Source: Paenarthrobacter sp. JL.01a (GTDB lineage: Bacteria; Actinomycetota; Actinomycetes; Actinomycetales; Micrococcaceae). From it: a DNA stretch of 64,000 nt. The position numbers were made by a program, and so were the translations under genes. Positions 9,800-48,503 of the stretch are shown here, piece by piece. How positions within the stretch are numbered: the first letter of the stretch is position 1; each line of letters begins with the position of its first letter. A model generated the notes under the pieces. That model was given only the letters and a program-made list of their open reading frames with translations, had not been told where the DNA came from and searched no databases. The stretch lies in NCBI RefSeq assembly GCF_025452095.1, contig NZ_CP104877.1:3596001-3660000 (forward strand), read 5' to 3'.

Positions 9800-9808
9800 C
9801 GCTCCATC

Positions 9809-9936
9809 ACATCCCACAGGCTTCCCGGGAACCCTCGCTCACATACCAACAGGTTCCCGGGAACCCTCGCTCACATACCAACAGGTTCCCGGGAACCCTC
9901 ACTCACATCCCACAGGCTTCCCGGGACCCCTCACTC
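9809..9936. repeat. Four tandem copies of a 32-nt intergenic repeat
   Basis: Four exact-length units start at 9809, 9841, 9873 and 9905. Read on the minus strand, each begins GTGAGNGAGGG and carries a palindromic core (GGTTCCCGGGAACC in the two middle units). The array fills the gap between the convergent alpha-galactosidase and aroQ genes. It belongs to the same 32-nt family as the arrays near 10435 and 12702. Confidence 0.85.
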
Positions 9937-9951
9937 ACCGGCGCCGGAGCG

Positions 9952-10416: not shown

Positions 10417-10434
10417 GGCTCCCAATCTATCGCC

Positions 10435-10542
10435 GCGAGAGAGCGTCCGGGAATTGCGCTCATTAGGTGAGAGAGCGTGCCCTAAAAACAGTCACTATGT
10501 GAGAGAGGGCCGCCCAAATGCCCGGGTGATGTGAGAGAGGGC
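10435..10542. repeat. Three tandem 32-nt units plus a partial unit, divergent cores
   Basis: Units start at 10435, 10467 and 10499, each exactly 32 nt, with a partial copy from 10531. On the plus strand each starts G(T/C)GAGAGAG(C/G)G, but the following ~21 nt differ completely between units. The array lies between the marP stop (10546) and the aroQ start (10416), so it may overlap aroQ expression signals. Confidence 0.75.
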
Positions 10543-10545
10543 TGG

Positions 10546-21467: not shown

Positions 21468-23432
<1,965 letters not shown>

Positions 23433-23434
23433 CG

Positions 23435-32087: not shown

Positions 32088-32254
32088 GATATATGCCCCT
32101 TGTGGTATACTATAGGCCAGTTAGCGGGGCTGGTTGAGACTCCTCCCACCCGCAAACCTACCTGTACGGTCGGGCCTCATCTGGTTGGCCCCCACTCCCC
32201 GGTAGATTGAGATCAACACTAAGTAGCTACCGTCGTGTGGCTGGAGATTGCCAC
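32088..32254 (+). promoter_or_regulatory. Leader of the hsdM-S-R operon
   Basis: A 167-nt gap with a TATACT -10-like hexamer at 32106-32111 and a GGGCC / GGCCC hairpin near 32172-32191. This leaves a ~140-nt leader before the chosen hsdM start. The hairpin could affect translation. No operator is recognised. Confidence 0.4.
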
Positions 32255-34735: not shown

Positions 34736-35985
34736 GTCACGACGCCACACTTCTGAAAGACAAGTCAACGGAGATTGGCACGATTCCTTCTGACTGGGAC
34801 GTTAAACCAATTAGCGAGCTGTTTGAAGTGACCGCTGGTGGCGACTGGGACAGAATGAATTCGTCCCGTTATGAGCAAGGGCCTTACAGGTATCCCATAT
34901 ATGCTAATGCTCTGAGGAACGACGGAGTTCAAGGGTACTGTAAATATTGGAAAATCCCCGGCGAGTCTCTGACAATTACAGGGCGCGGAGATGTTGGAAA
35001 AGCTGTATATCGTCCACGTCCTTTCGTCCCTATCGTCCGACTCCTGGCACTCGTCCCCAGGAATAGCTCTGCAAAGTTCTACGCTGAATACATAAACAGC
35101 AAGGTGTCGTTCGCACTCGAATCAACCGGAGTACCCCAACTCACTGCACCTCAGGTGAAACCGTTATTAGTTCCTGTTCCACCGGTTGAAGAGCAATATG
35201 CAATAGCGAATGCCTTAACGCAAGTCGACTCCTTGGTCACCGCCCTCGAGCGGCTGATTGTGAAGAAGGAAGCAATCAGAGACGGCATGATGCAACAACT
35301 CCTCACTGGAAAAACTCGCCTAGAGGGCTTCTCCGGCGAGTGGCTATCGCTCCATGTCGCATCAAAATCGACTCTGCGAGCACGTATTGGCTGGCAGGGC
35401 CTGACCACCAGCGAATACAAGACGACCGGACACTTTCGATTAGTGGGAGGAACGGAGTTCTTTGACGGATCGGTCGACTGGGGACGAACGCCATTTGTAG
35501 ATCAGTGGCGTTATGAGCAAGATGCGGGCATCCAGGTACGTGAAGGTGATGTCCTGCTAACCAAGGATGGAACAATCGGAAAGACGGCCTACGTAGATCA
35601 TCTTCCTGGTCCCGCGACACTAAACAGCGGTGTTTTTGTAATACGTCCAACTCGCAATGCTTACGACTCACGCTTCCTGTACTACGTACTGCGCTCTCGC
35701 GCTTTTGAAGAGTTCCTTTCACGGCTCACGGCCGGATCAACAATTTCGCACCTGTACCAGCGTGACCTTGTAGGTCTAGTTATTAACGCCCCCGCTACTT
35801 TAGAAGAGCAGGCCGCCATAGCGAGCGCTCTCGGAGACGCGGACTCGGAAATCCGCGCGTTGCGTTTACAACTCTCAAAGACTAAGTCTCTCAAACGAGG
35901 TATGACGCAGGAACTACTCTCCGGACGTACGCGTCTTGCGAACCAAGATGGATCTCCTGATCGCCAGAAGGAGCATCAATCGTGA
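34732..35985 (+). CDS. hsdS: Type I restriction-modification specificity subunit
   Basis: A 417-residue protein with two target-recognition halves, each ending in the conserved coiled-coil repeat: MMQQLLTGKTRLEGF near residue 195 and MTQELLSGRTRLA near the C-terminus. Each half fixes one part of the bipartite DNA target. The ATGA overlap with hsdM indicates coupled translation. The two recognition regions are the least conserved part of such genes, so the target cannot be predicted from reading. Confidence 0.9.
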   Translation: MSHDATLLKDKSTEIGTIPSDWDVKPISELFEVTAGGDWDRMNSSRYEQGPYRYPIYANALRNDGVQGYCKYWKIPGESLTITGRGDVGKAVYRPRPFVPIVRLLALVPRNSSAKFYAEYINSKVSFALESTGVPQLTAPQVKPLLVPVPPVEEQYAIANALTQVDSLVTALERLIVKKEAIRDGMMQQLLTGKTRLEGFSGEWLSLHVASKSTLRARIGWQGLTTSEYKTTGHFRLVGGTEFFDGSVDWGRTPFVDQWRYEQDAGIQVREGDVLLTKDGTIGKTAYVDHLPGPATLNSGVFVIRPTRNAYDSRFLYYVLRSRAFEEFLSRLTAGSTISHLYQRDLVGLVINAPATLEEQAAIASALGDADSEIRALRLQLSKTKSLKRGMTQELLSGRTRLANQDGSPDRQKEHQS

Positions 35986-36061
35986 ATGCTCCACACGCAA
36001 GGCAATTGCATCGAAATCGGAAACAAGCATCATCAGATAATTGGAAATTGGGGGAAACATC

Positions 36062-39000
36062 GTGACTACAGTTGGACAGATTGAGCGCAAGACACAAGAA
36101 CGCGTTGTGAACCTCTTCCAGCATGAGCTTGGGTACGAATACTTGGGCAACTGGGAGTATCGCGACAATAACTCCCATATCGAAGTTGGTTTACTTGAGC
36201 AAAATCTGCGAGCTCGTGGCTATGACGCGAATCTTGTCAACAGAGCCATTGAGCAGTTCAAAAAAGCCGCATCCCTGGGCGGTGGCCGCAACCTCTACGA
36301 AGCCAACCACGAGGTCTACAACCTGCTCCGCTACGGGGTAAAGGTAAAGCCAGGCATCGGTGAGAATACCGAGACAGTCTGGTTGATTAACTGGGATAAT
36401 CCTCAGTCCAACCACTTCGTCGTTGCCGAAGAGGTTTCAATTAAGGGCGAGCACAACAAGCGACCGGATGTAGTACTTTACGTCAACGGTATCGCGCTTG
36501 GGGTCATCGAGTTGAAGCGTTCGAAAGTTGCCGTTTCTGAAGGCATCCGGCAGAACATCGGAAACCAGAAGAAGGACTTCATCCGTCCGTTCTTTACCAC
36601 CGTTCAGCTCGTTATGGCTGGCAACGACGTTGAGGGATTGCGTTACGCCGTTATCGATACACCCGAGAAGTACTGGCTGGAGTGGAAAGAGCCATCTGAT
36701 ATTGACGAACCCCTGGACCGAGGCCTGTTGCAGATGTGCTCCAAGGATCGCCTCCTGGAGATCGTGCACGACTTCATGGTCTTCGACGGTGGGGTAAAAA
36801 AGACCTGTCGACACAATCAGTTCTTCGGTGTGAAGGCCGCGCAGGATCGGATTGCCAAACGCGAGGGCGGCATCATCTGGCATACTCAGGGCTCCGGGAA
36901 GTCCCTCACCATGGTGTGGCTGGCCAAGTGGATTCGGGAGCACCAGACACATGGAGAGAATCAGGCGCGCGTCCTCATCATCACCGACCGCACCGAGCTC
37001 GATGATCAAATCAAGCGAGTATTCAACGGTGTCAACGAAGACATCTACCGCACGAAGAGCGGCGCTGACCTTATCGGCTCACTCAATAGCAACGATCCTT
37101 GGCTGATGTGCTCGCTTGTTCATAAGTTCCGTGGCGGCGATGACGAGCAGGCACAGAACGAAGCCAGTGGAGACTTCATTGCCGAACTCAACTCGAAAAT
37201 TCCTGCCGGCTTTAGCGCCAAGGGCAACATCTTTGTTTTCGTCGACGAGGCTCACCGCACGCAGTCCGGCAAGATGCACAAAGCGATGAAGCAATTGCTA
37301 CCCGAAGCCATGTTCATCGGCTTCACTGGTACACCGCTATTGAAGGCCGACAAAGCCACCAGTATTGAAACGTTCGGCAGTTTCATCCACACATACAAGT
37401 TCAATGAAGCCGTCGAAGACGGTGTTGTGCTCGACCTGCGGTACGAAGCCCGCAATATCGACCAAGACCTCATCTCGCCTGCCAAAATCGACCAGTGGTT
37501 CGATGCAAAAACTAAGGGCATGACCGATCTCTCCAAGGCTGAACTGAAGAAGCGCTGGGGCACCATGCAGAAGGTCGTCAGCTCCGAGCCGCGTTCGAAG
37601 CAGATCGTCAACGACATTTTGCTCGATATGGAAACGAAGCCGCGCCTCATGGACAACCAGGGCAATGCTATGCTCGTTGGCTCCAGTATCTATCAAGCTT
37701 GCAAGTTCTACGAAATGTTCTGCCAAGCAGGATTCAAGGGTAAGTGCGCCATCGTCACAAGCTATGTCCCGCAGGCCAGCGATATCTCCAAGGAGGACTC
37801 GGGACATGGCGCGACGGAGAAACTGCGCCAGTACGACATCTATCGGCAAATGCTGGCGGACCATTTCGATGAACCAGCCGACCAAGCCGTCACCAAGATT
37901 GAGCAGTTCGAGAAGGAAGTCAAAGACCGGTTCATTAACGAACCTGGTCAGATGCGCCTACTTATCGTCGTTGACAAGCTCCTGACCGGCTTTGATGCGC
38001 CATCGGCGACGTATCTATACATCGATAAGAAGATGCGCGACCACGGTCTTTTCCAAGCCATTTGCCGCGTCAACCGTCTCGACGGCGACGATAAAGATTA
38101 CGGCTATATCGTCGACTACCAGGACTTGTTCAACTCCCTTGAAGATGCCATCACGGACTACACTTCCGGCGCCTTGGATGGGTACGAAAAAACTGACATC
38201 GAAGGGCTGCTCAAGGACCGAGTACAGCAAGCTCGCGAAGACTTAGATGAAGCGCTGGAACGGGTTCGTGCCCTCTGCGAAGCTGTCGAACCGCCCCGCG
38301 GAACGCTGCAGTATCAGCACTATTTCTGCGCCCAGGAACAAGGCAATGCGCAGCAAATCAAAAGCAACGAAGCTAAGCGTGTCGAGCTCTATAAGTCCGT
38401 TGCTGGGCTAGTGCGTACGTATGGCGCGGTCGCGAATGACATGATCGAAGCCGGGTACAGTCAGGGCGAAGCTGCGGCGATCGCAAAGGACGTCGCCCAT
38501 TACGTAGCTGTCCGTGACGAGGTAAAGCTGGGTGCCGGTGAGAACGTCGATTTCAAGCAGTACGAAGCCGGCATGCGATTCTTGCTCGACACATACATCC
38601 GGGCTGATGCTTCGGAAGTAGTTGCCGACTTCCAGGATGTGGGACTAGTTCAGCTCATCGTTGAACAAGGGGCCGCAGCCATCGACAAGCTACCTAGCGG
38701 TATCAAGAAAAACCCGGAAGCCGTAGCTGAGACCATCGCCAATAACATCCGCAAAGTCATCATCGATGAAAATGCGATGAACCCCAAGTACTACGAGAAC
38801 ATGTCCAGCCTGCTTGATGCGATCATCGAGCAACGCCGACAGGGCGCTCTCGATTACAAGCAGTACCTGGAGCAGCTGATTGCCCATGCCAAAAAGGTTG
38901 GCTCGAAGGAATCGGATACCGTTTACCCCACGTGGGCTGTTAACGGCGCGCAGCGGGCCATTGTCGACTTCGGATGGTCAGATCCTGCGACGCCGATTCA

Positions 39001-39160
39001 GGTCGACACTGCGATCATGACGAGCAAACCTCACGGCTGGGTTGGAAACACGTTCAAGGAAAAGGAAGTCGCCCGAGCGATTCGTCGCGTTCTGCCAGCG
39101 GGCTTCGATCGCTTCGACGAGCTGTTCGACCTGATAAAGGCCCGCAATGAGTACCGCTAG
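36062..39160 (+). CDS. hsdR: Type I restriction endonuclease subunit
   Basis: A 1032-residue motor-nuclease. The PD-(D/E)XK nuclease lies early (RPDVVLYVNG then GVIELKRS, near residue 145). The helicase motor follows with TQGSGKSLTM (motif I), VFVDEAHRT (motif II) and FTGTPLL (motif III). It cuts unmodified DNA after ATP-driven translocation. The GTG start at 36062 is chosen for its GGGGGAA site; a TTG seven codons earlier is weaker. A 76-nt gap separates it from hsdS, and its stop overlaps the peptidase gene. Confidence 0.9.
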   Translation: MTTVGQIERKTQERVVNLFQHELGYEYLGNWEYRDNNSHIEVGLLEQNLRARGYDANLVNRAIEQFKKAASLGGGRNLYEANHEVYNLLRYGVKVKPGIGENTETVWLINWDNPQSNHFVVAEEVSIKGEHNKRPDVVLYVNGIALGVIELKRSKVAVSEGIRQNIGNQKKDFIRPFFTTVQLVMAGNDVEGLRYAVIDTPEKYWLEWKEPSDIDEPLDRGLLQMCSKDRLLEIVHDFMVFDGGVKKTCRHNQFFGVKAAQDRIAKREGGIIWHTQGSGKSLTMVWLAKWIREHQTHGENQARVLIITDRTELDDQIKRVFNGVNEDIYRTKSGADLIGSLNSNDPWLMCSLVHKFRGGDDEQAQNEASGDFIAELNSKIPAGFSAKGNIFVFVDEAHRTQSGKMHKAMKQLLPEAMFIGFTGTPLLKADKATSIETFGSFIHTYKFNEAVEDGVVLDLRYEARNIDQDLISPAKIDQWFDAKTKGMTDLSKAELKKRWGTMQKVVSSEPRSKQIVNDILLDMETKPRLMDNQGNAMLVGSSIYQACKFYEMFCQAGFKGKCAIVTSYVPQASDISKEDSGHGATEKLRQYDIYRQMLADHFDEPADQAVTKIEQFEKEVKDRFINEPGQMRLLIVVDKLLTGFDAPSATYLYIDKKMRDHGLFQAICRVNRLDGDDKDYGYIVDYQDLFNSLEDAITDYTSGALDGYEKTDIEGLLKDRVQQAREDLDEALERVRALCEAVEPPRGTLQYQHYFCAQEQGNAQQIKSNEAKRVELYKSVAGLVRTYGAVANDMIEAGYSQGEAAAIAKDVAHYVAVRDEVKLGAGENVDFKQYEAGMRFLLDTYIRADASEVVADFQDVGLVQLIVEQGAAAIDKLPSGIKKNPEAVAETIANNIRKVIIDENAMNPKYYENMSSLLDAIIEQRRQGALDYKQYLEQLIAHAKKVGSKESDTVYPTWAVNGAQRAIVDFGWSDPATPIQVDTAIMTSKPHGWVGNTFKEKEVARAIRRVLPAGFDRFDELFDLIKARNEYR

Positions 39161-39875: not shown

Positions 39876-40450
39876 AGCTGATGATTCATTACATAGCTGC
39901 CACGCCCTCGCCATCGGCCTCTGCCACTGGCCCGGAGGACTTCTCCACCAAGCTGGCCATTGCTGTCGTAGGCATACTCGGCACGCTTGTCGTTGCGCTA
40001 CTTTCGGCCTTTGTTGGACGGACGCTTGCGGTTCGCGACAGACGCCGCGAACAGTACGGCGAGGCATACAAAACAGCTGTCGAGTGGCGGGAAATGCTAC
40101 ACCGTGTTCGGCGTCGTAAAACAAATGGTGACGGCGACGCTGACCTCGCCCAGAAGTTCCACGACCTGCATGAGCGCATTGCCTTTCACGAAGGCTGGAT
40201 CGGCAGCGAATCAGAAGCCATGAGACGCGCCTTTCGCACGCTCCAAACAGCAGTTCGCGACGAAACCCGCGAAGACATTCAGAAGGCGTGGAAGGCAGAT
40301 GCTACGAAATCGACTGAGGCTCTGGAACCACAACCGACCACAGTCAATCGTGCAGCGGATGACGCATTCCTCAAGGCAGTACGCAGGCACTTATCGTGGC
40401 AACCATGGCGACGCGTTGCGCTGCTGTGGTCCCAAAGGGAGAAGAATTGA
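39872..40450 (+). CDS. Single-pass membrane protein, possible effector of the CD-NTase
   Basis: A 192-residue protein with one hydrophobic segment at about residues 27-50 (LAIAVVGILGTLVVALLSAF), followed by a long charged helical region (QYGEAYKTAVEWREMLHRV). The start overlaps the peptidase stop (ATGA), and its own stop overlaps the nucleotidyltransferase start (TGATG). Small membrane proteins beside CD-NTases act as membrane-damaging effectors in several CBASS systems, so an effector role is a fair inference. It lacks the second helix of classical SLATT domains, so I do not name a family. Confidence 0.65.
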   Translation: MKLMIHYIAATPSPSASATGPEDFSTKLAIAVVGILGTLVVALLSAFVGRTLAVRDRRREQYGEAYKTAVEWREMLHRVRRRKTNGDGDADLAQKFHDLHERIAFHEGWIGSESEAMRRAFRTLQTAVRDETREDIQKAWKADATKSTEALEPQPTTVNRAADDAFLKAVRRHLSWQPWRRVALLWSQREKN

Positions 40451-41802
40451 TGGGCACTGATGTATCAAACGAGTTCGAGAAGTTCCGTGCGGCTATATGT
40501 CTGACCCAAACCCAAGTTGATCGCATCGAGTCTGCACGGTCAGCTCTTGAGACATACCTGCTGAACAACGTGGACCATCTAAAGTCGGGAGACATCACGC
40601 TGCAAGGCTCCTACGCAAACGGGACAGCCGTGAAGCCTGTAGCCGGTGGCGAATACGACGTCGATATCATCGTCCGGTCGGCAGACTCAGGTGACACCGC
40701 CGATGACGCCCTGGAAGACCTCGCCGAGGTGCTGCTGCAGCATGGAACTTACAAAGGCAAGATCAAGGAAAAGACGCCCTGCGTCCGCGTTGAGTACGCC
40801 GATGACTACATCGGGGGCTTCCACGTTGACCTAGTACCAGTACGTGAAAGCACAGACTCTGACGCCCCACTCGACGCCCCTCGGCGTGGCAAAGGATGGC
40901 ACCCAACGGCGCCGGATGAATACACAACATGGTGCGCCGACCAAGGTGACGAGTTCCGCCGCACCGTCCGCATGCTGAAAAGGTGGCGAGATGAGCAGCA
41001 AGACGTTCGTCATGGGATCAAATCCATCGTTCTTCAAGTCCTTGTCGCGCAACACTTGGCTACCGCCGACAACGATGCAGAAAGGCTGCGCGACACCTTT
41101 GAAGCGCTGCACACTTACTTAAGCGGGTTCACCGCACCGCCCGTAGTCAGCAACCCTGTTCTCATCGATGAGAATCTAACAGCCAGGTGGGATCAAGAGT
41201 CCTTCGACGACTTCAAGAAGGCACTTGCGGCAGCCGTGGAAGTATCCCGAGCAGCTGTCGACGCCGAAGACAAAACCGAAGCATGTGAGTCCTGGCGGAC
41301 TCTACTCGGGGACGCGTTCCCGGAGTATGTCGCCAAGGGCCTAAGTGCGATGACCGTCGCCGACGTATCGCATGCCCAGTCCATCAATGCGAGAGGATGG
41401 TATGAACTTCCTGACCCTCGCTTTGAACTTGCCGTCACCTGTTTTGAAGGCCGCAACACCAAAAAGATGTCGCACTATCCGAGTGACTCGAGGTTACTCT
41501 TTGCAGGGAAAAAGCTTCGGTTTCGAGCCACGCTAGCAGGACCCACACAGGCCAACGTGTGGTGGCGGGTCACCAATACCGGCAAGCATGCCCGTGACCT
41601 AGATGGGCTGCGCGGAGAATTCCAGCGCGCGCAAGATCTTCGGAAGAAGCCATCAGCAGATCCACTCACCCACTGGGAGTCCACCGCATACACGGGGTCT
41701 CATGTCGTGGAAGCTTTCGCCGTCGTAGGTGACCGCGTTGTTGCCAAAAGCACCCCCTTCGTAGTCCGAATCCACCGTGCCGGTGTGTCGTGGGCATGGT
41801 AG
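40450..41802 (+). CDS. CD-NTase-like nucleotidyltransferase with C-terminal AGS-C sensor domain
   Basis: A 450-residue protein. The nucleotidyltransferase core shows GSYANGTAV (Gly53-Ser54), the metal pair Asp70-X-Asp72 in GEYDVDIIV and a third aspartate at 127 (FHVDLVPV): all catalytic residues are present. The last ~130 residues match the AGS-C sensor domain: LRFRATL, VWWRVTNTG, LRGEF, ESTAYTGSHVVEAF and a final VRI strand. Such enzymes make cyclic or linear oligonucleotide signals during phage attack. The start overlaps the membrane-protein stop, with GGGAGAAG upstream. Nucleotide product unknown. Confidence 0.85.
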   Translation: MGTDVSNEFEKFRAAICLTQTQVDRIESARSALETYLLNNVDHLKSGDITLQGSYANGTAVKPVAGGEYDVDIIVRSADSGDTADDALEDLAEVLLQHGTYKGKIKEKTPCVRVEYADDYIGGFHVDLVPVRESTDSDAPLDAPRRGKGWHPTAPDEYTTWCADQGDEFRRTVRMLKRWRDEQQDVRHGIKSIVLQVLVAQHLATADNDAERLRDTFEALHTYLSGFTAPPVVSNPVLIDENLTARWDQESFDDFKKALAAAVEVSRAAVDAEDKTEACESWRTLLGDAFPEYVAKGLSAMTVADVSHAQSINARGWYELPDPRFELAVTCFEGRNTKKMSHYPSDSRLLFAGKKLRFRATLAGPTQANVWWRVTNTGKHARDLDGLRGEFQRAQDLRKKPSADPLTHWESTAYTGSHVVEAFAVVGDRVVAKSTPFVVRIHRAGVSWAW

Positions 41803-41831: not shown

Positions 41832-42281
41832 TTAGGTGTTGACACCTAATAGAAAGATGCGTGCCGTGTCGTAGCTGCAGCCGACCCGCTTGGCAATCTC
41901 GCGAATGATCATTCCCTGTTTGCGCAGCCGCAAGATCTCCTTCTCCTTGGCTGGCGTCAAGCCGCGAGGCCGCGAGGCGACACCATGCTCGGCGAGCAAT
42001 CGCAGGAAGGTTGACTTTGCAACCCCCTTCTCACGAGCGAGTGCCGTACTCATCTCGCCGGCTTGATAGCGAGCGACAAGCTGGGCCAGCTCCTCAGGCG
42101 TGAAGCGATCCGACAGGCGGTAGCGCTGAGTCTTACGTGGCGGCCGCACCGGGCGCGGCTTGATCTGGCCCCCATCGATGCGCTTGAGCGCAGCTGCGAT
42201 GGTCGTCATCTGGTCGATTTTGAAGCTGGCGCGGTTCGAGTAACATCCTAGGATCTCGACCAATTTTAGAATGATTCTCAA
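41832..42281 (-). CDS. Recombinase C-terminal helix-turn-helix tail, element A
   Basis: A 149-residue frame from a TTG. It has a basic linker (KPRPVRPPRKTQRYRL) and two helix-turn-helix units: ELAQLVARYQAGEMSTALAR with KGVAKSTFLRLL, and ILRLRKQGMIIREIAKRVGC. This is Hin/resolvase-like DNA binding without a catalytic domain. The segment LVEILGCYSNRASF at its start is read across the CGACCA att core. If element A is circular, its frame continues directly from the serine recombinase. A near copy ends element B (45821-46255). In the integrated state it may be expressed alone as a small regulator or be silent. Confidence 0.75.
   Translation of the reverse strand: MRIILKLVEILGCYSNRASFKIDQMTTIAAALKRIDGGQIKPRPVRPPRKTQRYRLSDRFTPEELAQLVARYQAGEMSTALAREKGVAKSTFLRLLAEHGVASRPRGLTPAKEKEILRLRKQGMIIREIAKRVGCSYDTARIFLLGVNT
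42257..42262. other. Internal att core between elements A and B
   Basis: The CGACCA hexamer follows CATCCTAGGATCT, as at the far-right site (CATCCTAGGACCT). Plus-strand sequence is shared with the 46-kb site up to this hexamer and diverges directly after it. That is what a junction of two elements at one att site would look like. Confidence 0.6.
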
Positions 42282-42302
42282 TAAGACCTATTGACAAACA
42301 GG

Positions 42303-42332
42303 GGTCGCTGAAGCAATTCGGCGACCTTTTTT
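42303..42332 (+). terminator. Terminator at the left end of element B
   Basis: The 10-bp stem GGTCGCTGAA / TTCGGCGACC has one G-U pair at position 7 and the tetraloop GCAA, followed by TTTTTT. It copies the architecture of the tRNA-Pro terminators at 21734 and 46264: 10-bp stem, GNRA loop and a wobble at the same place. It probably once terminated the tRNA when element B was the first insert. The rest of the gap up to 42556 holds two GGTACGGTTTT copies (42341, 42429) and no convincing gene. Confidence 0.75.
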
Positions 42333-42556
42333 GTAGTTACGGTACGGTTTTATGGCATCCAAGCTTGCTGTCATGAAGTTCTACTACCCCAGTGGAGGGG
42401 TTTGAATACCATGCCTAAGGTGTCCTCCGGTACGGTTTTCATTACAACAGCTACGACAGCGCTACCTCTGTTATTCCATTTTCAGATGTACCGCAGGTGT
42501 TGTATGCATCTCTACGTTTTCTCAGCTCACTAACAGTAGTCGAGCAATGGCATCGG

Positions 42557-42585
42557 TTGACCCTATTGCCCTTATGGTTCATACT
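42557..42585 (+). promoter_or_regulatory. Promoter of the first pilin operon
   Basis: A -35 TTGACC at 42557-42562 and a -10 CATACT at 42580-42585 are spaced by exactly 17 nt, with the ATG 12 nt after the -10. The resulting leader would be only a few nucleotides. The same design recurs at 44731-44759. Confidence 0.7.
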
Positions 42586-42596
42586 TTTATCCAGCA

Positions 42597-43112
42597 ATGT
42601 GGGCTAGCAAAAATAAACATACTACTATTCCCAAACAGGCCAATGGTTTCACCATTGTAGAACTTTTGATCGTAATCGTGGTGATCGCAATCTTGGCCGC
42701 GATTACGATTGTGGCGTATAACGGGATTCAAGATAGGGCTAAAAACTCGACCGCACAAAGTGACCTCGCGAACTTTGCCAAGAAGATTGAGGTTGTTAAA
42801 GTAGATGCCAGTGATGGACTGTATCCCGCATCACTCACCAGCTCGATGGATATCCGGGGCAGTAAAAGTGTCTACGCAGTCACACGCAATAACTGGTACT
42901 ACTGTGTCAGCACTGATCGGACACAGTATGCGTTGGGTGTAGCCCTCACTAATGCTGGCGCCGGCTATTTCATGTCATCTGTCAATGGGCTGCAGGCAAG
43001 CACAAACGTCGCTGACGCCACGACCTGCCCAATTGTCGGTAAAGCAAGCGGCTCGCAGATGGGACATGTCTGGAACGGCACTTCAGGAAGTTGGTCGTCA
43101 TGGGTCAATTAG
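42597..43112 (+). CDS. Type IV prepilin-like protein 1
   Basis: A 171-residue protein. A short leader ends in glycine before FTIVELLIVIVVIAIL, with the class III cleavage site G|F and Glu at position +5, then AAITIVAYNGIQDRAKN. The C-terminal part is a compact Ser/Thr/Gly-rich domain with two cysteines that could form a loop. Prepilin peptidase and an assembly ATPase are not encoded nearby, so it would depend on other machinery. The leader MWASKN is shared with pilin 5. Its stop overlaps the start of the next pilin gene. Confidence 0.85.
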   Translation: MWASKNKHTTIPKQANGFTIVELLIVIVVIAILAAITIVAYNGIQDRAKNSTAQSDLANFAKKIEVVKVDASDGLYPASLTSSMDIRGSKSVYAVTRNNWYYCVSTDRTQYALGVALTNAGAGYFMSSVNGLQASTNVADATTCPIVGKASGSQMGHVWNGTSGSWSSWVN

Positions 43113-43645
43113 CGATGCCACATAGATCATGCAGACAACCTAGAAGACCTCTTGGGTTTACCGTTGTCGAGCTACTCATTGTGATTGTCGTGATTGCAAT
43201 CTTAGCAGCGATCACGATCGTCGCTTACAACGGAATCCAAAACCGCGCAAACGATTCGGCGGTTCAATCTGACCTCACGGCGATGGCTAAAAAAATATCT
43301 CTATTCCACATCGATAATGGACGCTACCCCAACACAACAGCCGAGCTAAACACATTAGGTATCAAAGCCAGCTTCTCCGCCTACGGCACAACACAGACCT
43401 ATAATCTTCCTTATTGTATTGCTGCCGATTCCAGCTACTATGCGATCTCCGCACTGAGTAAGTCTGGTAACAAGTTCTACTTCAGTTCAAAAGTAGGAAG
43501 CGTAAAATCATACCCTTCAGCCTCTACTAATGACGGGATGCAAACTACCAGTAGCTGCTCGGACATTGAAGCCGGCACGACGCGGTCATTCATTGCCGGA
43601 TACGGCGGTAATGCATGGCGAATCTGGGTCGGAGGAACGGCGTAA
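43100..43645 (+). CDS. Type IV prepilin-like protein 2
   Basis: A 181-residue protein with a basic leader (SCRQPRRPLG) before FTVVELLIVIVVIAIL and AAITIVAYNGIQNRANDSAV. The mature domain includes DNGRYPNTTAELNTLG, a segment typical of type II pseudopilins and minor pilins, and two cysteine-bearing loops. The start at 43100 overlaps the pilin 1 stop and has AGGAAG upstream; 43115 is an alternative. Its stop and the next start share a base (TAATG). It is part of a four-gene overlapping pilin operon. Confidence 0.83.
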   Translation: MGQLAMPHRSCRQPRRPLGFTVVELLIVIVVIAILAAITIVAYNGIQNRANDSAVQSDLTAMAKKISLFHIDNGRYPNTTAELNTLGIKASFSAYGTTQTYNLPYCIAADSSYYAISALSKSGNKFYFSSKVGSVKSYPSASTNDGMQTTSSCSDIEAGTTRSFIAGYGGNAWRIWVGGTA

Positions 43646-44115
43646 TGGCCATACTAGCTACCAGTGAGCCGCGCCGCCAGGGCTTCACGATCGTGGAGCT
43701 GCTTATCGTGATTGTGGTGATCGCAATCTTGGCATCGATCACCGTCGTGGCATATAACGGCATCCAGGAGCGTGCCCGCACAACAACCGTCAATTCTGAT
43801 CTAGCGGCCATCCAAAAGGCTATGCTGATGTACCGGGCCGACCACGGCACACTACCGCTCTCAGCCGATTGGTATAGCGGCACGGCAATGCCACCAACAT
43901 CTCGCTGGTCGACAGAAATTATCGCGGGACTCAAGAACGAGAAGTTTATTCAAACATCAGGCCTCGACAAGGACCCGTGGGGTCAGTACTACTGGTACGA
44001 CAATAACGACTGCTCCTTTGGCAGCTCTGGCAACTCACCCGTCAAAAGTGTCGGCCCGGATAGCCTTCTCAATACAGCTGATGATATTGGCATAATGATA
44101 AAGACTAATTGCTAA
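43645..44115 (+). CDS. Type IV prepilin-like protein 3 (GspG-like C-terminus)
   Basis: A 156-residue protein. The leader SEPRRQG precedes FTIVELLIVIVVIAIL and ASITVVAYNGIQERART. The mature domain ends with LDKDPWGQYYWYDNND and DSLLNTADDIG, the calcium-site-like end seen in major pseudopilins (GspG) and some major pilins. That makes it the best candidate for the main filament subunit of the set. It starts at 43645 with GGAGG at 9 nt. It overlaps pilin 2 by one base. Confidence 0.83.
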   Translation: MAILATSEPRRQGFTIVELLIVIVVIAILASITVVAYNGIQERARTTTVNSDLAAIQKAMLMYRADHGTLPLSADWYSGTAMPPTSRWSTEIIAGLKNEKFIQTSGLDKDPWGQYYWYDNNDCSFGSSGNSPVKSVGPDSLLNTADDIGIMIKTNC

Positions 44116-44120
44116 CAACT

Positions 44121-44708
44121 ATGATACGTAAACATCTCAACTCAGACATTTCTTTCAAGAATAGGCACTTAGGCTTTACCATTGTGGAGCTGCTCATTGT
44201 AATTGTAGTAATTGCTATTTTGGCGTCAATTACCGTCGTTGCCTATAACGGGATCCAGGGACGTGCACGTGACAACGGGCGAATTGCAAAGATCCAAGGC
44301 ATAGCGAAAGCAATCGAGCTGTACAAGGTAGACAATGGCCGGTATCCACCAATTCTAGACGGCAACGGACGTGAGTCTACTTGTGGCTCACAAACCGAAA
44401 ACTGGGGCCACTGCGATCGGAACAAAACATTGGCAGATATGCTAGCTCCGTACACGACCATCGACCCAACCTCACTCTCAGATGCAACCCAGGGCAGTAA
44501 CTATTACCACTACACAAGCCAGGCAACCGATAATTACCAGACTTATGGGATGATGGTCTACCTAGAGGGCGCTGGCGGCCAAGGCGACGGTGGGTACTAC
44601 AGCAATGCCTACGAAGTTGGCCCAAAGCCGAAGTACTGCGCTTCGACATACACAGGCACTGGTGCAAACTGGACTAGTTATAACAGCATTTGTAGCGGCG
44701 GCAATTAG
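44121..44708 (+). CDS. Type IV prepilin-like protein 4
   Basis: A 195-residue protein, the largest of the set. The leader ends in NRHLG before FTIVELLIVIVVIAIL and ASITVVAYNGIQGRARDNGR. The mature part contains VDNGRYPPILDGNG and four cysteines (ESTCGS, WGHCDR, KYCAS, NSICSG), enough for two disulfides. No ribosome-binding site is evident for ATG 44121; a TTG at 44109 overlaps the pilin 3 stop. It is the last gene of the first pilin operon. A promoter for the fifth pilin follows. Confidence 0.82.
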   Translation: MIRKHLNSDISFKNRHLGFTIVELLIVIVVIAILASITVVAYNGIQGRARDNGRIAKIQGIAKAIELYKVDNGRYPPILDGNGRESTCGSQTENWGHCDRNKTLADMLAPYTTIDPTSLSDATQGSNYYHYTSQATDNYQTYGMMVYLEGAGGQGDGGYYSNAYEVGPKPKYCASTYTGTGANWTSYNSICSGGN

Positions 44709-44730
44709 TTAGCGACCGGTGCTCACTAAG

Positions 44731-44759
44731 TTGACCGGGTATAGCTTATGCTTCATAAT
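44731..44759 (+). promoter_or_regulatory. Separate promoter of pilin 5
   Basis: TTGACC (44731-44736) and CATAAT (44754-44759) are 17 nt apart, with the ATG 12 nt after the -10. Spacing to the start codon is identical to the promoter at 42557-42585, and the first 19 coding bases of the two genes are identical. The -10 is a better match to consensus than the first promoter. Confidence 0.72.
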
Positions 44760-44770
44760 CTCTACTAGTA

Positions 44771-45316
44771 ATGTGGGCTAGCAAAAATACACGAACTAAC
44801 ACAGCAAAAGATCCTAGCGGCTTCACGATCGTAGAGCTTTTGATCGTCATTGTAGTGATCGCTATCTTGGCGGCCATCACCACTATAGCGTATAACGGCA
44901 TTCAGAGCCGCGCGCAAACATCGAAGATTAATGCCGATTTCAACATGCTATCCAAAGCCATTGCAGCCGCCCAGGTACAAACAAACGGACCAATGAAAGA
45001 TGTTGTGCTTGATTCTAACATCAATAGTAGTTGCCAGACGAAGCCTGCCGGCACGGATCTCTCAGCCCTGCCACGGAGCGATGCCTGCTGGGTGAAGTAT
45101 GATGCCGCTCTCGACAAGCTGAGTATTGCCTCAAATATGAATGTTCGCGGGGTTGTAGATCCGTGGGGACGACCCTACTGGATTGACTCAAATGAAGCAG
45201 AAGCATCAGCGACCGATTGCCGAAAAGATGAGCTCGCCGTATACGTAAGACCCCTTAGTGGCACTAGTCGCACAAACAACGTCTTGCTTCCGTTCGTTAC
45301 CCCAGCGTGCCTTTAG
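44771..45316 (+). CDS. Type IV prepilin-like protein 5
   Basis: A 181-residue protein with the same leader start (MWASKN) as pilin 1, then SGFTIVELLIVIVVIAIL and AAITTIAYNGIQSRAQTS. The mature domain contains VVDPWGRPYWIDSN, a pseudopilin-like segment, and cysteines (SSCQT, DACWV, TDCRK, PACL). It has its own promoter, so its dose may be set apart from pilins 1-4, as expected for a major or regulatory pilin. The five mature domains differ strongly beyond the shared N-terminal helix. Confidence 0.83.
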   Translation: MWASKNTRTNTAKDPSGFTIVELLIVIVVIAILAAITTIAYNGIQSRAQTSKINADFNMLSKAIAAAQVQTNGPMKDVVLDSNINSSCQTKPAGTDLSALPRSDACWVKYDAALDKLSIASNMNVRGVVDPWGRPYWIDSNEAEASATDCRKDELAVYVRPLSGTSRTNNVLLPFVTPACL

Positions 45317-45351
45317 GGTAGTCTCGCAGATACTCATGCATCTGCCGTCTT

Positions 45352-45375
45352 TTCTGTCCGCACAAATGGACAGAA
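45352..45375. repeat. Short inverted repeat after pilin 5
   Basis: TTCTGTCC / GGACAGAA arms of 8 nt around an 8-nt loop lie 36 nt after the pilin 5 stop. There is no T-run. It may mark the mRNA end or regulate the small frame that follows. Confidence 0.45.
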
Positions 45376-45386
45376 AGTGAGGCACC

Positions 45387-45656
45387 ATACCACGAGTCGC
45401 CCAACGAGACCAATACAAACGTCATCTTTTCTTACGAACAGTCTGGACTGACCCAAGTAAACAGGCCTATTTCGCAGACCTATCAGCCAACGAACAGTGG
45501 AAGCTCTACAGCTTCTACCGGCCAAGCGAAGTGATGACACTCAAGCAATTCCGCGATCACCTACGAGCCGTCCGGTATCAGCATCCGCAGCTTTGCCACA
45601 TCAGCGGCAAGCTGTATCGACGAGTCGAACATGCCGTCACTCAGGACGGACAATGA
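45387..45656 (+). CDS. Small reading frame without a standard start codon, 89 codons
   Basis: The frame encodes a protein-like sequence: PRVAQRDQYKRHLFLRTVW, ADLSANEQWKLYSFYRPSE and KQFRDHLRAVRYQHPQL. It is open from 45381 but begins at ATA (45387) where an ATG would be expected, 4 nt after GTGAGG. The next upstream in-frame ATG (45366) is separated from it by a TGA. Either ATA is used, the start has decayed by one base, or a mutation made the gene silent. The composition is clearly coding-like. No family recognised. Confidence 0.5.
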   Translation: MPRVAQRDQYKRHLFLRTVWTDPSKQAYFADLSANEQWKLYSFYRPSEVMTLKQFRDHLRAVRYQHPQLCHISGKLYRRVEHAVTQDGQ

Positions 45657-45689
45657 CCAGCAAGACTAGAGAGGCAAGCACGACATAGG

Positions 45690-45824
45690 GTGTCAACTCG
45701 ACGCGGCGGCACGATCGTTGCCTATGGCGTCGTCCGGCCGAAGCTAGATCTGAACAAGCTATTCAAAGCCCTGATCCAAATGGCCCGCGAAGGGCAAGAC
45801 GAAGACGAGAAGCCAAAACACTAG
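45690..45824 (+). CDS. Small protein, 44 aa
   Basis: A GTG-started frame encoding STRRGGTIVAYGVVRPKLDL followed by KLFKALIQMAREGQDEDE. It is in the same frame as the previous small gene after its TGA. The stop codon overlaps the stop of the convergent tail gene by 2 nt. No ribosome-binding site is evident. It is short, so support rests on its protein-like composition and compact placement. Confidence 0.4.
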   Translation: MSTRRGGTIVAYGVVRPKLDLNKLFKALIQMAREGQDEDEKPKH

Positions 45825-46255
45825 TCCGAGGCACTACCCAAGAGAAACAGTCGGGCGGTGTCATAACTACAGCCAACCCGCTTCGCAATCTCACGAATGA
45901 CCATCCCCTGCTTGCGGAGCCGAAGGATCTCTTCCTCCTTCCCTGGGGTAAGGCCGCGCGGTCTGGTGCCAACGCCACGCTCAGCCAGGAGGCGCAGGAA
46001 GGTTGACTTAGCGATACCGCTCTCACGAGCCAGTGCTGTGCTCGTTTCGCCCGCTTTATAGCGAGTAATGAGTTGGTCAAGTTCTTCTGGTGTGAAGCGA
46101 TCCGCCAGACGGTAGCGCTGCGCGGGGCGAGGGCGCTTGGCCGGCGGACGGCGGAGCTCAGCGGCATCGATCTGATCGAGGGCATCGCGGATGATGTTGA
46201 GCTTGTCTATTTTGAAGCTGGCCCGGTACGAGTAACATCCTAGGACCTCGACCAA
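45821..46255 (-). CDS. Recombinase C-terminal helix-turn-helix tail, element B
   Basis: A 144-residue frame from a TTG, closely similar to the tail of element A over its whole length: VEVLGCYSYRASFKID, TPEELDQLITRYKAGETSTA, ESGIAKSTFLRLL and ILRLRKQGMVIREIAKRVGC. The frame is open upstream through CGACCA and the host terminator. Its matching recombinase is gone. It marks the right edge of element B. If A and B leave together, the recombinase of A would fuse in frame to this tail. Confidence 0.75.
   Translation of the reverse strand: MVEVLGCYSYRASFKIDKLNIIRDALDQIDAAELRRPPAKRPRPAQRYRLADRFTPEELDQLITRYKAGETSTALARESGIAKSTFLRLLAERGVGTRPRGLTPGKEEEILRLRKQGMVIREIAKRVGCSYDTARLFLLGSASD
46249..46254. 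other. attR core at the right end of the integrated DNA
   Basis: Third CGACCA copy. Joining the tRNA 3' end directly to the sequence after it would restore tRNA-Pro followed by ATAACGAAA and a hairpin terminator 9 nt later, a normal tRNA locus. Confidence 0.65.
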
Positions 46256-46263
46256 TAACGAAA

Positions 46264-46290
46264 ATGGCGTCGAGAAATCGGCGCCTTTTT
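46264..46290 (+). terminator. Presumed original host terminator of tRNA-Pro
   Basis: The stem GGCGTCGA / TCGGCGCC with the GAAA loop is followed by TTTTT. Twenty-two nucleotides are identical to 21734-21755. In the empty site it would lie 9 nt after the tRNA CCA, the normal distance for a tRNA terminator. Confidence 0.75.
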
Positions 46291-46439
46291 CGTTTAACGC
46301 CCAAGCCCAAAGAATATCAACCGGCGGAGGTTATCCACAGGCGCGTGGCCGGCCGTTGCACGGCGGCTCCCCTGGCCTCTAGGCTCGCGCCTGATGACTG
46401 AATGCAGTCGAAGCAACGTATTTTGGGGGCGGTTGCCAG

Positions 46440-46817
46440 ATGTCCAGCGATCAGATTGGCCTTGTCACAGGATTGGGCGTGCTCGGCGCGGTGCTGCTGG
46501 CAGGCGGCGTTCTTGGCCTCGGCGGCTGGCTGCCGATGAACCCGGTGATTGGAATCCGCATCCCATCGGTCATGATGTCCGATGTCGCATGGAGGGCTGG
46601 ACACAGGAGTGCCGGCCCCTTCCTCATCCTCGGCGGCGCGTCGGCTGGAGCCGCCGCAGCGGTGACCACGTTGGTGCCCACGGCGAATCCTGTGACGGTT
46701 TCGCTGGCAGGTGGAGGAAGTGCAGTGCTGTTCCTGGTTATCGGAGCCGTCGTCGCCTCCAAGAGTGCGCTTCGGGCGGAAAGCCGCCAACCGGCGTCGA
46801 CTCCTGGTGCGCCATGA
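46440..46817 (+). CDS. SdpI-like membrane protein
   Basis: A 125-residue protein with three hydrophobic segments. The conserved loop GGWLPMNPVIGIRIPSVM then SDVAWRAGHR is the mark of the SdpI C-terminal family. In Bacillus SdpI gives immunity to a secreted toxin and signals to its regulator. Actinobacterial members are mostly unstudied. It is the first host gene after the integrated DNA. It converges on the secreted-peptide gene, with a shared bidirectional hairpin between. The presence of a possible immunity protein next to a secreted peptide is worth noting. Confidence 0.8.
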   Translation: MSSDQIGLVTGLGVLGAVLLAGGVLGLGGWLPMNPVIGIRIPSVMMSDVAWRAGHRSAGPFLILGGASAGAAAAVTTLVPTANPVTVSLAGGGSAVLFLVIGAVVASKSALRAESRQPASTPGAP

Positions 46818-46845
46818 GTTTTCCAGCGGCAGGGGGCAAAAGAAA

Positions 46846-46877
46846 ACCCCGGGGCATCGCTCGTCACGCCCCGGGGT
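46846..46877. terminator. Hairpin terminator shared by the SdpI-like and peptide genes
   Basis: Arms ACCCCGGGGC and GCCCCGGGGT (10 nt, perfect) around a 12-nt loop. On the minus strand they are followed by TTTTCTTTT, so the peptide gene has a strong terminator. The plus-strand gene has only the stem. Confidence 0.85.
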
Positions 46878-46894
46878 ATCTTCGGATGTCTTGC

Positions 46895-47113
46895 TTACAT
46901 CGGATCCGGCCAGTTGCCGATGGACATCGGCGTGGCGGTGGTGTCCGTTGTCTTGGTCGGCGCCGAAACGCGCATAGGATCAGGCCAGTTGCCAATGGCA
47001 CTGACCGATGAGTTGGAATCTACAGCTGACGCTGCAGAGACGACTGCGGGAGCCGCAACCGACAAAGTCAGTGCGCCTGCCAAGGCCACTGACGCGGCGA
47101 TTTTCTTGAACAT
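46895..47113 (-). CDS. Secreted peptide precursor with two IGNWPDPM repeats
   Basis: A 72-residue precursor. The signal peptide runs MFKKIAASVALAGALTLSVA to a likely cut after VSAASA (near residue 30). The mature part holds SAIGNWPDPM (residues 38-47) and, at the very C-terminus, SIGNWPDPM (64-72), joined by a Thr/Ala-rich linker. The two 24-nt repeat segments differ at three positions, all silent. This suggests selection on the peptide sequence. It is divergent from a helix-turn-helix/TPR regulator and has its own terminator. A processed signalling peptide is the most economical reading. A short structural or toxin-like secreted peptide is the alternative. Confidence 0.72.
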   Translation of the reverse strand: MFKKIAASVALAGALTLSVAAPAVVSAASAVDSNSSVSAIGNWPDPMRVSAPTKTTDTTATPMSIGNWPDPM

Positions 47114-47163
47114 GTTGTACCCCAATGCGAGTCGGATTCGTTACGGAAATTGCGCGGTCCCTG

Positions 47164-47204
47164 TTGACATACATTGTAAAATGTTTTCCACAGAGACTGT
47201 CAAG
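47164..47204. promoter_or_regulatory. Divergent promoter with TTGACA/TGTCAA inverted repeat
   Basis: TTGACA (47164-47169) and TGTCAA (47199-47204) form an outer inverted repeat, and ACATT-GTAA-AATGT (47171-47184) an inner one. On the minus strand TTGACA is followed 17 nt later by TTTACA (or 19 nt later by TACAAT), a good promoter for the peptide gene. The symmetry suggests binding by the adjacent regulator. Confidence 0.6.
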
Positions 47205-47237
47205 GTTTTGGTCAAAAGACACCTGTAGGAGGAACCC

Positions 47238-48503
47238 GTGGGAAACGGATTCGGCGAGAAGCTACGTGCCGAACGGCTCGAACGCGGGTTAACGCAGGCC
47301 GAGCTCGGCAAAAACCTGTACTCACCCAGCTACATCTCCCTGCTTGAAACGGGCCGTCGCGAGCCGACGGCCGAGGTCATCGAGGAACTTGCCCGTCGCT
47401 TGGAACTCGCGCCGAAGGCCCTGGAAGCGTGGAGCCAACCCGTTACCGTAAGCGACGCTGAATACGTCCTTGCCGGCTTGTACGCCCGCCAAGCATGGGA
47501 CTTGCGCGATTACCAGCTCGCTGCCAGCCACGCCGCCACTGCCGCGCAGATTGCCCTTGAGGCCAAGAACAACAGCGCCTGGTGGAACATGACGTACATG
47601 CAGGCCGAATGCGTCATGAAGCAGGGCCAGCTGAAGGAATGCCAGCAGATTGTTGAGCACCTGTTGGAACATCCCATGGCCACCGAGTCCGCCGGCCTGG
47701 GAGTGCGCGCCTGGCAGATGCTTGCCGCTGTGTGTCACGGACAAGGGCAGCTGGCCACCGCCGTCGAGCATGCAAAACAAGCCGTCAAGCTCAGCGAGCA
47801 ACTGCCCAAGGGCTCCACGCTCATCATTGGCGCGCACCGCGCGCTGATCGGCGCGCTGGCTGAGAGCGGCAAGCTCGACGAGGCCTGGGAGTACTGCCTG
47901 GCGATGATCGAGCATATGGACGAACACTCGATGTCGCAACTGGCAGGCGAGGTTGCATGGGTGGTTGGCAACGTAGCGTTCATGCGCCACGACTACACAG
48001 AGGGCATCAAGCACCACGAACGCGCCGCCAAGCTGCTTTCGCCCGCCAATGACATTGAACTGTGGGCCCGCTTCAACAAGGCCTCCGCGGCAGTCCGGCT
48101 GTCCTCAGGAATTGTGGAACCGGAAACTCTGTCCGCCATTGAACGCGCCGAGCTCGCGCTGTCCATTGTGGGCGGAAACAAGACGGACCAGCTGGAAGTC
48201 GCCTTCATCCGCGCCCGGTGGCTGTACCTGACCGGAGACATTCCGGCCGCCGTCGAGAAGCTGCGCGAAATCCATGCCGACCGCAAGGTTCTGGCCCGCC
48301 ACACGGCTGGTGAGGTGTCGTTGCTGCTCGGCAAGTCCTTGAAGGCCGCCGGTGAAGCTGCAGAAGCTCTGACCTTCCTGGAAGAAGCACAACACGACTT
48401 CAGCGCTGCAGGCGCCTCGGACCGCGTTCAACAGGCCATGGACGCCGTACTGGAGATCCGCCTGGCCGAGCGTCGGGCCGCGAAGGAACACTCCGAAGCC
48501 TGA
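47238..48503 (+). CDS. Helix-turn-helix regulator with C-terminal TPR domain (RRNPP-like layout)
   Basis: A 421-residue protein. An XRE-type helix-turn-helix at residues 5-60 (LTQAELGKNLYSPSYISLLE) is followed by about eight TPR-like helix pairs to the end (AWWNMTYMQAECVMKQGQLK, WEYCLAMIEHMDEH, WLYLTGDIPAAVEKL). This is the layout of PlcR, Rgg and related receptors that bind short imported peptides. The GTG start has GGAGG at 7 nt. It is divergent from the secreted peptide gene 125 nt away. No peptide-import permease is seen in the window, but Opp systems are general. Regulation of the peptide gene is inferred. Confidence 0.78.
   Translation: MGNGFGEKLRAERLERGLTQAELGKNLYSPSYISLLETGRREPTAEVIEELARRLELAPKALEAWSQPVTVSDAEYVLAGLYARQAWDLRDYQLAASHAATAAQIALEAKNNSAWWNMTYMQAECVMKQGQLKECQQIVEHLLEHPMATESAGLGVRAWQMLAAVCHGQGQLATAVEHAKQAVKLSEQLPKGSTLIIGAHRALIGALAESGKLDEAWEYCLAMIEHMDEHSMSQLAGEVAWVVGNVAFMRHDYTEGIKHHERAAKLLSPANDIELWARFNKASAAVRLSSGIVEPETLSAIERAELALSIVGGNKTDQLEVAFIRARWLYLTGDIPAAVEKLREIHADRKVLARHTAGEVSLLLGKSLKAAGEAAEALTFLEEAQHDFSAAGASDRVQQAMDAVLEIRLAERRAAKEHSEA

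Follow-up and report, generated by a model that had tools for sequence, protein, structure and literature searches.

Five type IV prepilin genes on a Paenarthrobacter chromosome lie in a probable tRNA-Pro cassette with counterparts in Saccharibacteria

Why should the chromosome of an actinobacterium carry a set of type IV prepilin genes that resemble those of Saccharibacteria, tiny bacteria that live on the surface of other actinobacteria? The question is raised by a stretch of 64,000 nucleotides (nt) from Paenarthrobacter sp. JL.01a (contig NZ_CP104877.1, positions 3,596,001 to 3,660,000; hereafter, the window), in which five such genes, pil1 to pil5, are located at 42597-45316. A preliminary description of the window had taken them for cargo of an actinobacterial element. 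That view is confirmed, except that the pilins are carried by a unit whose own type also occurs in Saccharibacteria. From sequence comparisons, we consider it very probable that this unit, here denoted unit B, is a site-specific cassette common to Saccharibacteria and Micrococcaceae that was acquired at the sequence CGACCA and here occupies a slot for defence cargo. Gene exchange between Patescibacteria and their hosts is mostly inferred from trees.

The prepilin genes and their relatives

All five genes, which encode type IVa prepilins, lie on the + strand with intact open reading frames (ORFs), and all five proteins exceed the Pfam cut-off for N_methyl (PF07963; 26-31 bits vs. 21.2), which bears out their initial identification as type IV prepilins. 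The genes are pil1 (42597-43112; 171 amino acids (aa), 57% identical to the pilin of locus L014 over aa 2-171), pil2 (43115-43645, from an ATG at 43115, the listed ORF starting at TTG 43091; 51%, L036), pil3 (43645-44115, from ATG 43645 in a TAATG overlap; 61%, L077, with L076 also matching), pil4 (44121-44708, from ATG 44121; 82% over 181 aa, L015, and 71%, L069) and pil5 (44771-45316; 53%, L028). With these revised starts of pil2, pil3 and pil4, the first four genes are closely coupled, and their spacing (TAGCGATG, TAATG and a 5-nt gap) reads as that of a single operon, whereas pil5 has its own leader. Promoter-like elements on the + strand, TTGACC-N17-CATACT (42557-42585) and TTGACC-N17-CATAAT (44731-44759), terminate 11 nt upstream of the start codons (ATG) of pil1 and pil5, respectively, the latter being near the form found in Saccharibacteria locus L046. 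The N-terminal string that had been described as common to all five proteins is largely so, with 27 of 32 residues invariant at pil1 positions 17-48, and reads FTIVELLIVIVVIAIL in four prepilins, but FTVVELL... in pil2; the N-methylation motif, with G before F, E at +5 and a hydrophobic helix, is present in 5/5 as GFT[IV]VELLIVIVVIAIL. Beyond this block the sequences diverge, in agreement with the earlier statement that the mature domains differ strongly, and whole-length identity to pil1 is 43, 38, 37 and 36% for the other four prepilins. An AlphaFold model, made for pil4 alone, has a long N-terminal helix and a low mean predicted local distance difference test score (pLDDT) of 48.8. As proteins, pil1-5 are ordinary; as a case, they are unusual, being epibiont-type genes in the defence island of a bacterium from the same phylum as the hosts of cultured Saccharibacteria.

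Relatives of the pilins were collected by scanning 84,980 species genomes with N-terminal patterns as seeds, which yielded at least 78 loci. Among the matches listed, 64 of 78 pilin loci are titled Saccharibacteria or Saccharimonadia, 12 come from metagenome-assembled genomes (MAGs) that are unnamed or titled 'Patescibacteria group', and two are from Micrococcaceae (Arthrobacter MYb229 and Paenarthrobacter PH39-S1), where the pilins likewise sit in islands of the integrase/restriction-modification (RM) type. Each window pilin has a different Saccharibacteria gene as its top match among these, and L015 contains a pil1-like gene followed directly by the pil4 orthologue. We compared the mature domains, with the conserved N-terminus removed, to 204 pilins, namely 161 of the Saccharibacteria group, 7 from Micrococcaceae islands and 36 of native type; in this comparison and in the pilin tree, the Saccharibacteria group comprises 76 loci, including 12 titled only 'bacterium' or 'Patescibacteria group', and the named best matches are all titled Saccharibacteria or Saccharimonadia. 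The best matches all came from Saccharibacteria (231 bits for pil4, 107 for pil3, 101 for pil1, 94 for pil5 and 64 for pil2, at 36-83% identity), vs. at most 27 bits for native-type pilins and at most 38.5 bits for the seven Micrococcaceae island pilins. Judged by these mature-domain scores, all five pilins are shown to be closest to Saccharibacteria pilins and not to native actinobacterial ones, which the preliminary description had named as the nearest relatives to be expected were its view mistaken. Its proposal of transfer from an epibiont pilin set is supported by the same matches and by the shared unit described below, and mimicry of epibiont pilins, which it also raised, is not needed.

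In a tree of 209 pilins, built from few columns and with 105 of its 206 inner branches open, the five window pilins need five changes, 4 of which are forced by supported branches, and the native pilins need two. A profile search found matches at 1e-6 in 217 of 396 Actinomycetota genomes (best non-self, 72.5 bits); at the family level, 9 of 395 genomes matched, with 130 bits for MYb229 and 114 bits for PH39-S1. Within the genus, 6 of 101 genomes, host included, have any N_methyl match at 0.001; among the matches listed, those at L092-L095 and L097-L101 are of the native-like GFTLIELLVV or GFSLIE/GFSLVE type, and only L096 (the same locus as L124) is of the Saccharibacteria type. The pilin of L124 lies between two helix-turn-helix (HTH) genes, with an HsdR-like gene about 6.5 kb away; a nearly identical pilin occurs in another genus at L047, near a serine-integrase-like gene and tRNA-Ser, and the Saccharibacteria-type pilin of L027 has a coupling-ATPase-like gene on one side and type I RM-like genes on the other (neighbour genes at these three loci were named by eye from translations). 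Among MW-start pilins, a strict promoter pattern is found at 11 of 14 in the Saccharibacteria group and at 2 of 3 in Micrococcaceae (13/17), with 0.04 expected, an expectation that is post hoc because the pattern was written after the window and L124 promoters had been viewed. At L124, the second of the two HTH genes next to the pilin is disrupted by a transposase gene (9746-11035) that is ISL3-like by eye. A further pilin group, with VELMIVIVVIAILAAISIVAYTGVQ and similar strings and one member truncated, is present in other Micrococcaceae genera (L121, L122 and L123); its closest mature-domain score is 38.5 bits, to pil2, and it was not used as proof. Phages and plasmids were considered as a source and dropped, as tblastn with pil4 against phages and with pil5 against plasmids gave no match; the A1 profile gave 2 weak matches in viral contigs.

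Unit B, its borders and its counterparts

Unit B comprises 3,992 bp (42263-46254), with a copy of the tRNA-Pro 3' end (CGACCA) at either border. The tRNA-Pro(CGG) gene itself, identified by ARAGORN, lies at 21600-21676 (+), and its 3' end, CCCGACCA (21669-21676), is the insertion point. The attachment (att) core C[CT]CGACCA recurs as CTCGACCA at 42255-42262 (+), the left border of unit B, and at 46247-46254 (+), the right border of both unit B and the whole island. These two copies coincide with the starts of the genes for HTHa (41832-42263, -) and HTHb (45821-46255, -), two-HTH proteins by Pfam (HTH_7 in HTHa) that close island A, the neighbouring element, and unit B, respectively. HTHa and HTHb are 74% identical and form a direct repeat 3,992 nt apart; the TTG start of HTHa that aligns with its homologues falls in the att core, and its nearest kin are at L164 and L165 (Micrococcaceae). 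The predicted structure of HTHb has a mean pLDDT of 71, and its best matches in the PDB are the two-HTH DNA-binding structures 2lvs and 1u78, none of the PDB matches reaching E ≤ 0.001.

The site without an island is preserved in a genome of the same genus (G097, L239), in which only 2 nt separate the counterpart of window 21500-21676 (98.3% identical) from the downstream counterpart of window 46258-47300 (94.7%, 1043 nt). In this empty site the tRNA is adjoined by the resident hairpin that in the window lies at 46264-46291 (+) and also at 21734-21761, inside the left edge of the island. The joined-flank search matched 101 of 101 genus genomes, mostly in the tRNA part only, and of the six loci compared (L236-L241) only L239 has the exact join. 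L241 (G090), where about 180 nt separate tRNA-Pro from the counterpart of window 46896-47299 (71%), likewise seems to be without the island; L236, L238 and L240 have a related serine integrase at the same tRNA-Pro (89, 77 and 81% nt identity), and L237 has other sequence. The direct att repeats and the empty site in a relative define an att-bounded tandem arrangement of two elements, island A (21677-42262), which includes a serine integrase, a Replic_Relax protein, a TrwB-like ATPase, type I RM, a CD-NTase and HTHa, and unit B, with its left-end repeats, the five pilins, small1 and HTHb.

Counterparts of unit B are found in Saccharibacteria. Of 295 genomes from the same family as the Saccharibacteria MAG G863 (RYN_401), 26 match HTHb at 1e-5, the best being G955, with a same-strand HTH pair. 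The order on the G955 contig (L225) is tRNA-Pro, core 7393, pilin, HTH1, core 8842, pilin, HTH2, core 10195, pilin, where the three cores and the end of the contig's own tRNA-Pro are copies of C[CT]CGACCA; PilB with an MshEN domain lies further on, and MurT is on the same contig. A tree with rows chosen for closeness to the window places HTHb as sister to L225 HTH2 (support 98/99). The noncoding left end of unit B (42263-42556, +), which contains a terminator-like hairpin with a T run (42303-42332), GGTACGGTTTT repeats at 42341 and 42429 and an inverted GTACCG at 42488, aligns with the first L225 site (7393) over 168 of 198 aligned nt (score 124; controls ≤27, 300 resampled) and with L046 over 63 of 72 nt (score 73; controls ≤28). 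The GGTAC-type repeats are possible binding sites of a recombinase or of the HTH protein. By eye, repeats of this type surround a stretch resembling a tRNA T-arm in window 42341-42493, L160, L161, L225, L226 and L228, the window stretch lying between GGTACGG repeats.

Further Saccharibacteria units closed by an HTH gene lie at tRNA-Gln (L226 and L228), the tRNA-Gln 3'-end string of L228 being repeated at the HTH start of L226; L226 includes a small1 relative, a SIR2-like gene and a HerA-domain gene. The stretch 1497-10167 of L226 (G954) consists of two stacked HTH-closed units at tRNA-Gln, the SIR2-like and HerA-domain genes being in one of them, and forms a small island of the defence type in a reduced genome. 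At L208 (G865, Saccharibacteria group), a small HTH gene lies near a CD-NTase-like gene, near tRNA-Leu (7701-8573 and 6686-7102); the CD-NTase-like gene product is 24% identical to the window CD-NTase, and the locus is possibly another HTH unit with defence cargo.

These observations suggest how unit B came to its place. The pilins, their promoters, the noncoding left end and HTHb would share common ancestry with Saccharibacteria pilin units, and unit B would be an integrative cassette in tandem with the serine-integrase island (21677-42262) at the tRNA-Pro 3' end. Its source would be a Saccharibacterium, or an element shared with one, and the att core CGACCA of tRNA-Pro and the HTH genes would be where it recombined, with the neighbouring serine integrase as the probable catalyst; the HTH protein likely binds the unit ends as an accessory or control factor. 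One study describes the type IV secretion system of Patescibacteria as homologous to monoderm conjugation machinery and only a minority of genomes as having conjugative potential (PMC12102498), so that more than one route is conceivable for the DNA. In another study, 'defense mechanisms', a category that there includes ABC transporters, is over-represented among genes transferred in Patescibacteria (PMC12455944).

The genes of island A are those of a large serine recombinase of 681 aa (21468-23513, -; Pfam Resolvase and Recombinase), the Replic_Relax protein (26097-27071, -; Pfam), the TrwB-like coupling ATPase (27068-29239, -; Pfam), type I RM genes assigned by Pfam (32207-39160, +; HsdM 32207-34735, HsdS ORF 34555-35985, HsdR 36041-39160) and a CD-NTase (40396-41802, +; Pfam SMODS and AGS_C; PADLOC Cyclase, 245 bits), a cyclase of the type found in the cyclic-oligonucleotide-based anti-phage signalling system (CBASS). 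In unit B, small1 (45387-45656, +) is a companion protein of HTH units, with relatives at L160 (51%), L161 (44%), L167 (34%) and L226 (31%); it has ATA where its L160 and L161 homologues have ATG, and is possibly decayed or uses an unusual start. In its correct reading frame, small2 gave only a self-match in three comparisons.

Weighing the alternatives

Several points weigh against a Saccharibacteria cassette. Most rows in the clade around HTHb (15 of 18) are from Micrococcaceae, so that some of the unit may have moved in the opposite direction, and both HTH genes of L225 contain a stop codon, so the units there may be dead. Alignment of the left end with the tRNA-Gln units L226 and L228 is marginal (28 and 29 vs. 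controls of 27 and 24). The Saccharibacteria units come from MAGs, in which mis-binning is possible, and G955 owes its placement to having been drawn from the family of G863 (RYN_401); yet the L225 contig has MurT and PilB with MshEN. The 8-nt core is short, with about one chance copy expected in the island by our own estimate, and one copy, at 22356 within the integrase gene, is taken for chance. The scan that returned at least 78 pilin loci was seeded on N-terminal patterns, and there is no near donor, the best match, for pil4, being 73.6% identical over 458 nt. Composition is not decisive either: the region had been called AT-richer than its surroundings, which is true relative to three core genes (GC of 0.48-0.53 for the pilins vs. 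0.63-0.67), but is only partly distinctive, as HsdM/S/R of the island have a GC of 0.52-0.54. Composition and codon usage were dropped as proof of a Saccharibacteria origin, as the pilins look Saccharibacteria-like and HsdS likewise; because HsdM/S/R are AT-rich too and HsdS codon usage is as distant from that of the host as is that of the pilins, composition alone proves nothing.

What the pilins could do in the host depends on the machinery available to them. The host genome (Micrococcaceae) is a single contig of 4,404,497 bases, rated 100% complete with 0.01 contamination, and its only PF07963 matches are pil1-5. The search for pilB, pilC and pilD that had been proposed at the outset found 6 PF00482 matches in 3 neighbouring pairs of separate single-domain ORFs (5/6 over the cut-off), three PF00437 ATPases over the cut-off, each beside such a pair, and two PF01478 (A24 peptidase) matches. 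TadA is the best NCBIfam model for all three ATPases, one of which passes its cut-off; by PF00437, PF00482 and NCBIfam, only Tad-type genes and none of the PilB/PilT/PilC type were detected in the complete genome. All genome matches to PF00482, PF01478 and PF00437 fall outside the island, which is thus free of assembly genes by these models, as had been said of the pilin neighbourhood. With no type IVa machinery detected in the host, the pilins would be membrane-anchored monomers at most, and the earlier idea that the cargo diversifies host pili is weakened because none was detected for it to act on. Assembly of the new pilins into functional pili by the host Tad machinery could draw on the three Tad-type ATPase sets and the two A24 peptidase matches, but Tad and type IVa prepilins have distinct signals and distinct machinery, and we regard this as very improbable. 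A misjoining of Saccharibacteria DNA into the host genome during assembly is more improbable still, given the single-contig, essentially uncontaminated genome, the att borders that match an empty site in a sister genome, and the Saccharibacteria-type pilins in further Micrococcaceae genomes.

If unit B is a cassette common to both groups, several roles are conceivable for its pilins. There is about an even chance that they arrived with the cassette and are silent passengers, idle in the actinobacterium, either in slow loss or retained with an island that is maintained as a whole on account of its RM and CBASS-type genes: the lack of detected type IVa machinery, the missing ATG of small1 and the decay of the L225 HTH genes agree with this, but none of the five ORFs is damaged, their starts are closely spaced and the promoters consensus-like, and similar pilins recur in other Micrococcaceae islands, L047 and L124 having nearly the same protein in two genera. 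It is rather unlikely, though conceivable, that the unit serves the epibiont by diversifying the Saccharibacteria pilus and its host range, with the actinobacterial island as reservoir or vehicle. The tandem pilin units of L225, downstream of tRNA-Pro and with PilB on the same contig, are compatible with such a role, as is the non-essential five-pilin locus without machinery that has been described for TM7x (PMC12206443), but no epibiont-host pair was found with the same unit at high identity. An unlikely role is defence against epibionts, in which membrane-anchored pilins displayed outside the membrane would occupy the receptor to which the pilus of an arriving Saccharibacterium binds, or would poison that pilus on being drawn into it, so that attachment is resisted. 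In that case the location next to RM and CBASS-type genes would not be fortuitous; 7 of 13 Micrococcaceae HTH loci have PADLOC or NACHT cargo, and T4P-2 of TM7x aids host binding (PMC12206443). However, the proposal draws on genomic location and would presuppose contact of this host with Saccharibacteria; in the TM7x study, the binding defect follows loss of PilA2, PilX2, PilB2 or PilC2, whereas loss of pilK, pilW2, pilV2 or pilZ2 had no significant effect (PMC12206443). The broadest proposal, that Saccharibacteria and Micrococcaceae trade tRNA-targeted HTH-closed cassettes both ways and that epibiont pilins in defence islands confer immunity against epibiont attachment, is one we consider quite doubtful.

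Defence cargo of related units and comparison with known systems

Relatives of HTHb at 1e-5 occur in 39 of 295 family genomes, and 13 Micrococcaceae HTH loci were fetched. In seven of the 13 a neighbouring gene matches a defence model (PADLOC or NACHT): GajA/GajB at L159, PDC-S06 at L160, L161 and L171, Cyclase at L164, HerA at L169 and NACHT at L162; the scans covered ten of the 13 loci (L159-L164, L167-L169 and L171). Pfam was applied to one neighbour each at L163 (no match), L167 (AdoHcyase_NAD) and L168 (DUF2971). The cargo is convergent with the HTH gene, sometimes with small1 between them, at L159, L160, L161, L164, L167, L169, L170 and L171, and departs from this order at L162; L164, from a sister species, corresponds to the right end of the window and has cyclase genes in the position of the cargo. 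The cargo genes L163 4993-5862, without a Pfam match, and L161 5193-5822, without a PADLOC match, are candidates for new defence genes. By eye, the protein of L122 8969-9703 resembles the C-terminal part of a large serine recombinase, followed by HTHs, and may show the origin of the small HTH proteins.

The two groups have the ends, the closing gene and the tRNA target of the HTH-closed unit in common, which makes it a candidate vehicle of gene exchange between epibiont and host, and in both it looks like a carrier of defence genes. If this is true, att-bounded pilin units would serve as markers that link uncultured Saccharibacteria to the organisms they live on, and it would become experimentally addressable whether the pilins of an epibiont protect its host or betray it. 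Judged by titles and the starts of abstracts, searches of the Creative Commons-licensed literature in PubMed Central brought up no description of such a unit.

Among known systems, the third pilin locus of TM7x resembles unit B in having five prepilins in a locus without machinery (PMC12206443); unlike that locus, the window pilins lie in an actinobacterial chromosome, in an att-bounded unit, and the likeness is one of description and not of protein comparison. Pilin loci of Saccharibacteria MAGs are like unit B in their N-terminal string, related mature domains and promoter form. Defence islands (Gabija, CBASS, PDC-S06, HerA) are comparable to the cargo of other Micrococcaceae HTH-closed units and to L226, with its SIR2-like and HerA-domain genes, whereas the cargo of unit B consists of pilins and includes no known defence system. 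Staphylococcal cassette chromosome (SCC) elements accrete at rlmH by means of a serine recombinase, as stacked cassettes with defence cargo. The window shares the serine recombinase, the stacked cassettes and the defence genes as cargo, a likeness of architecture, but the target is tRNA-Pro or tRNA-Gln instead of rlmH, and the small unit is without a recombinase. Cis-mobilizable elements (CIMEs) and tandem accretion of integrative and conjugative elements (ICEs) occur at tRNA genes, and they resemble the window in their direct att repeats, an integrase-free unit beside an integrase island, the tRNA 3' end and the empty site. Unlike in these elements, each att site in the window is adjoined by a two-HTH gene, no recombinase other than a large serine recombinase is seen, and similar units are found in two phyla.

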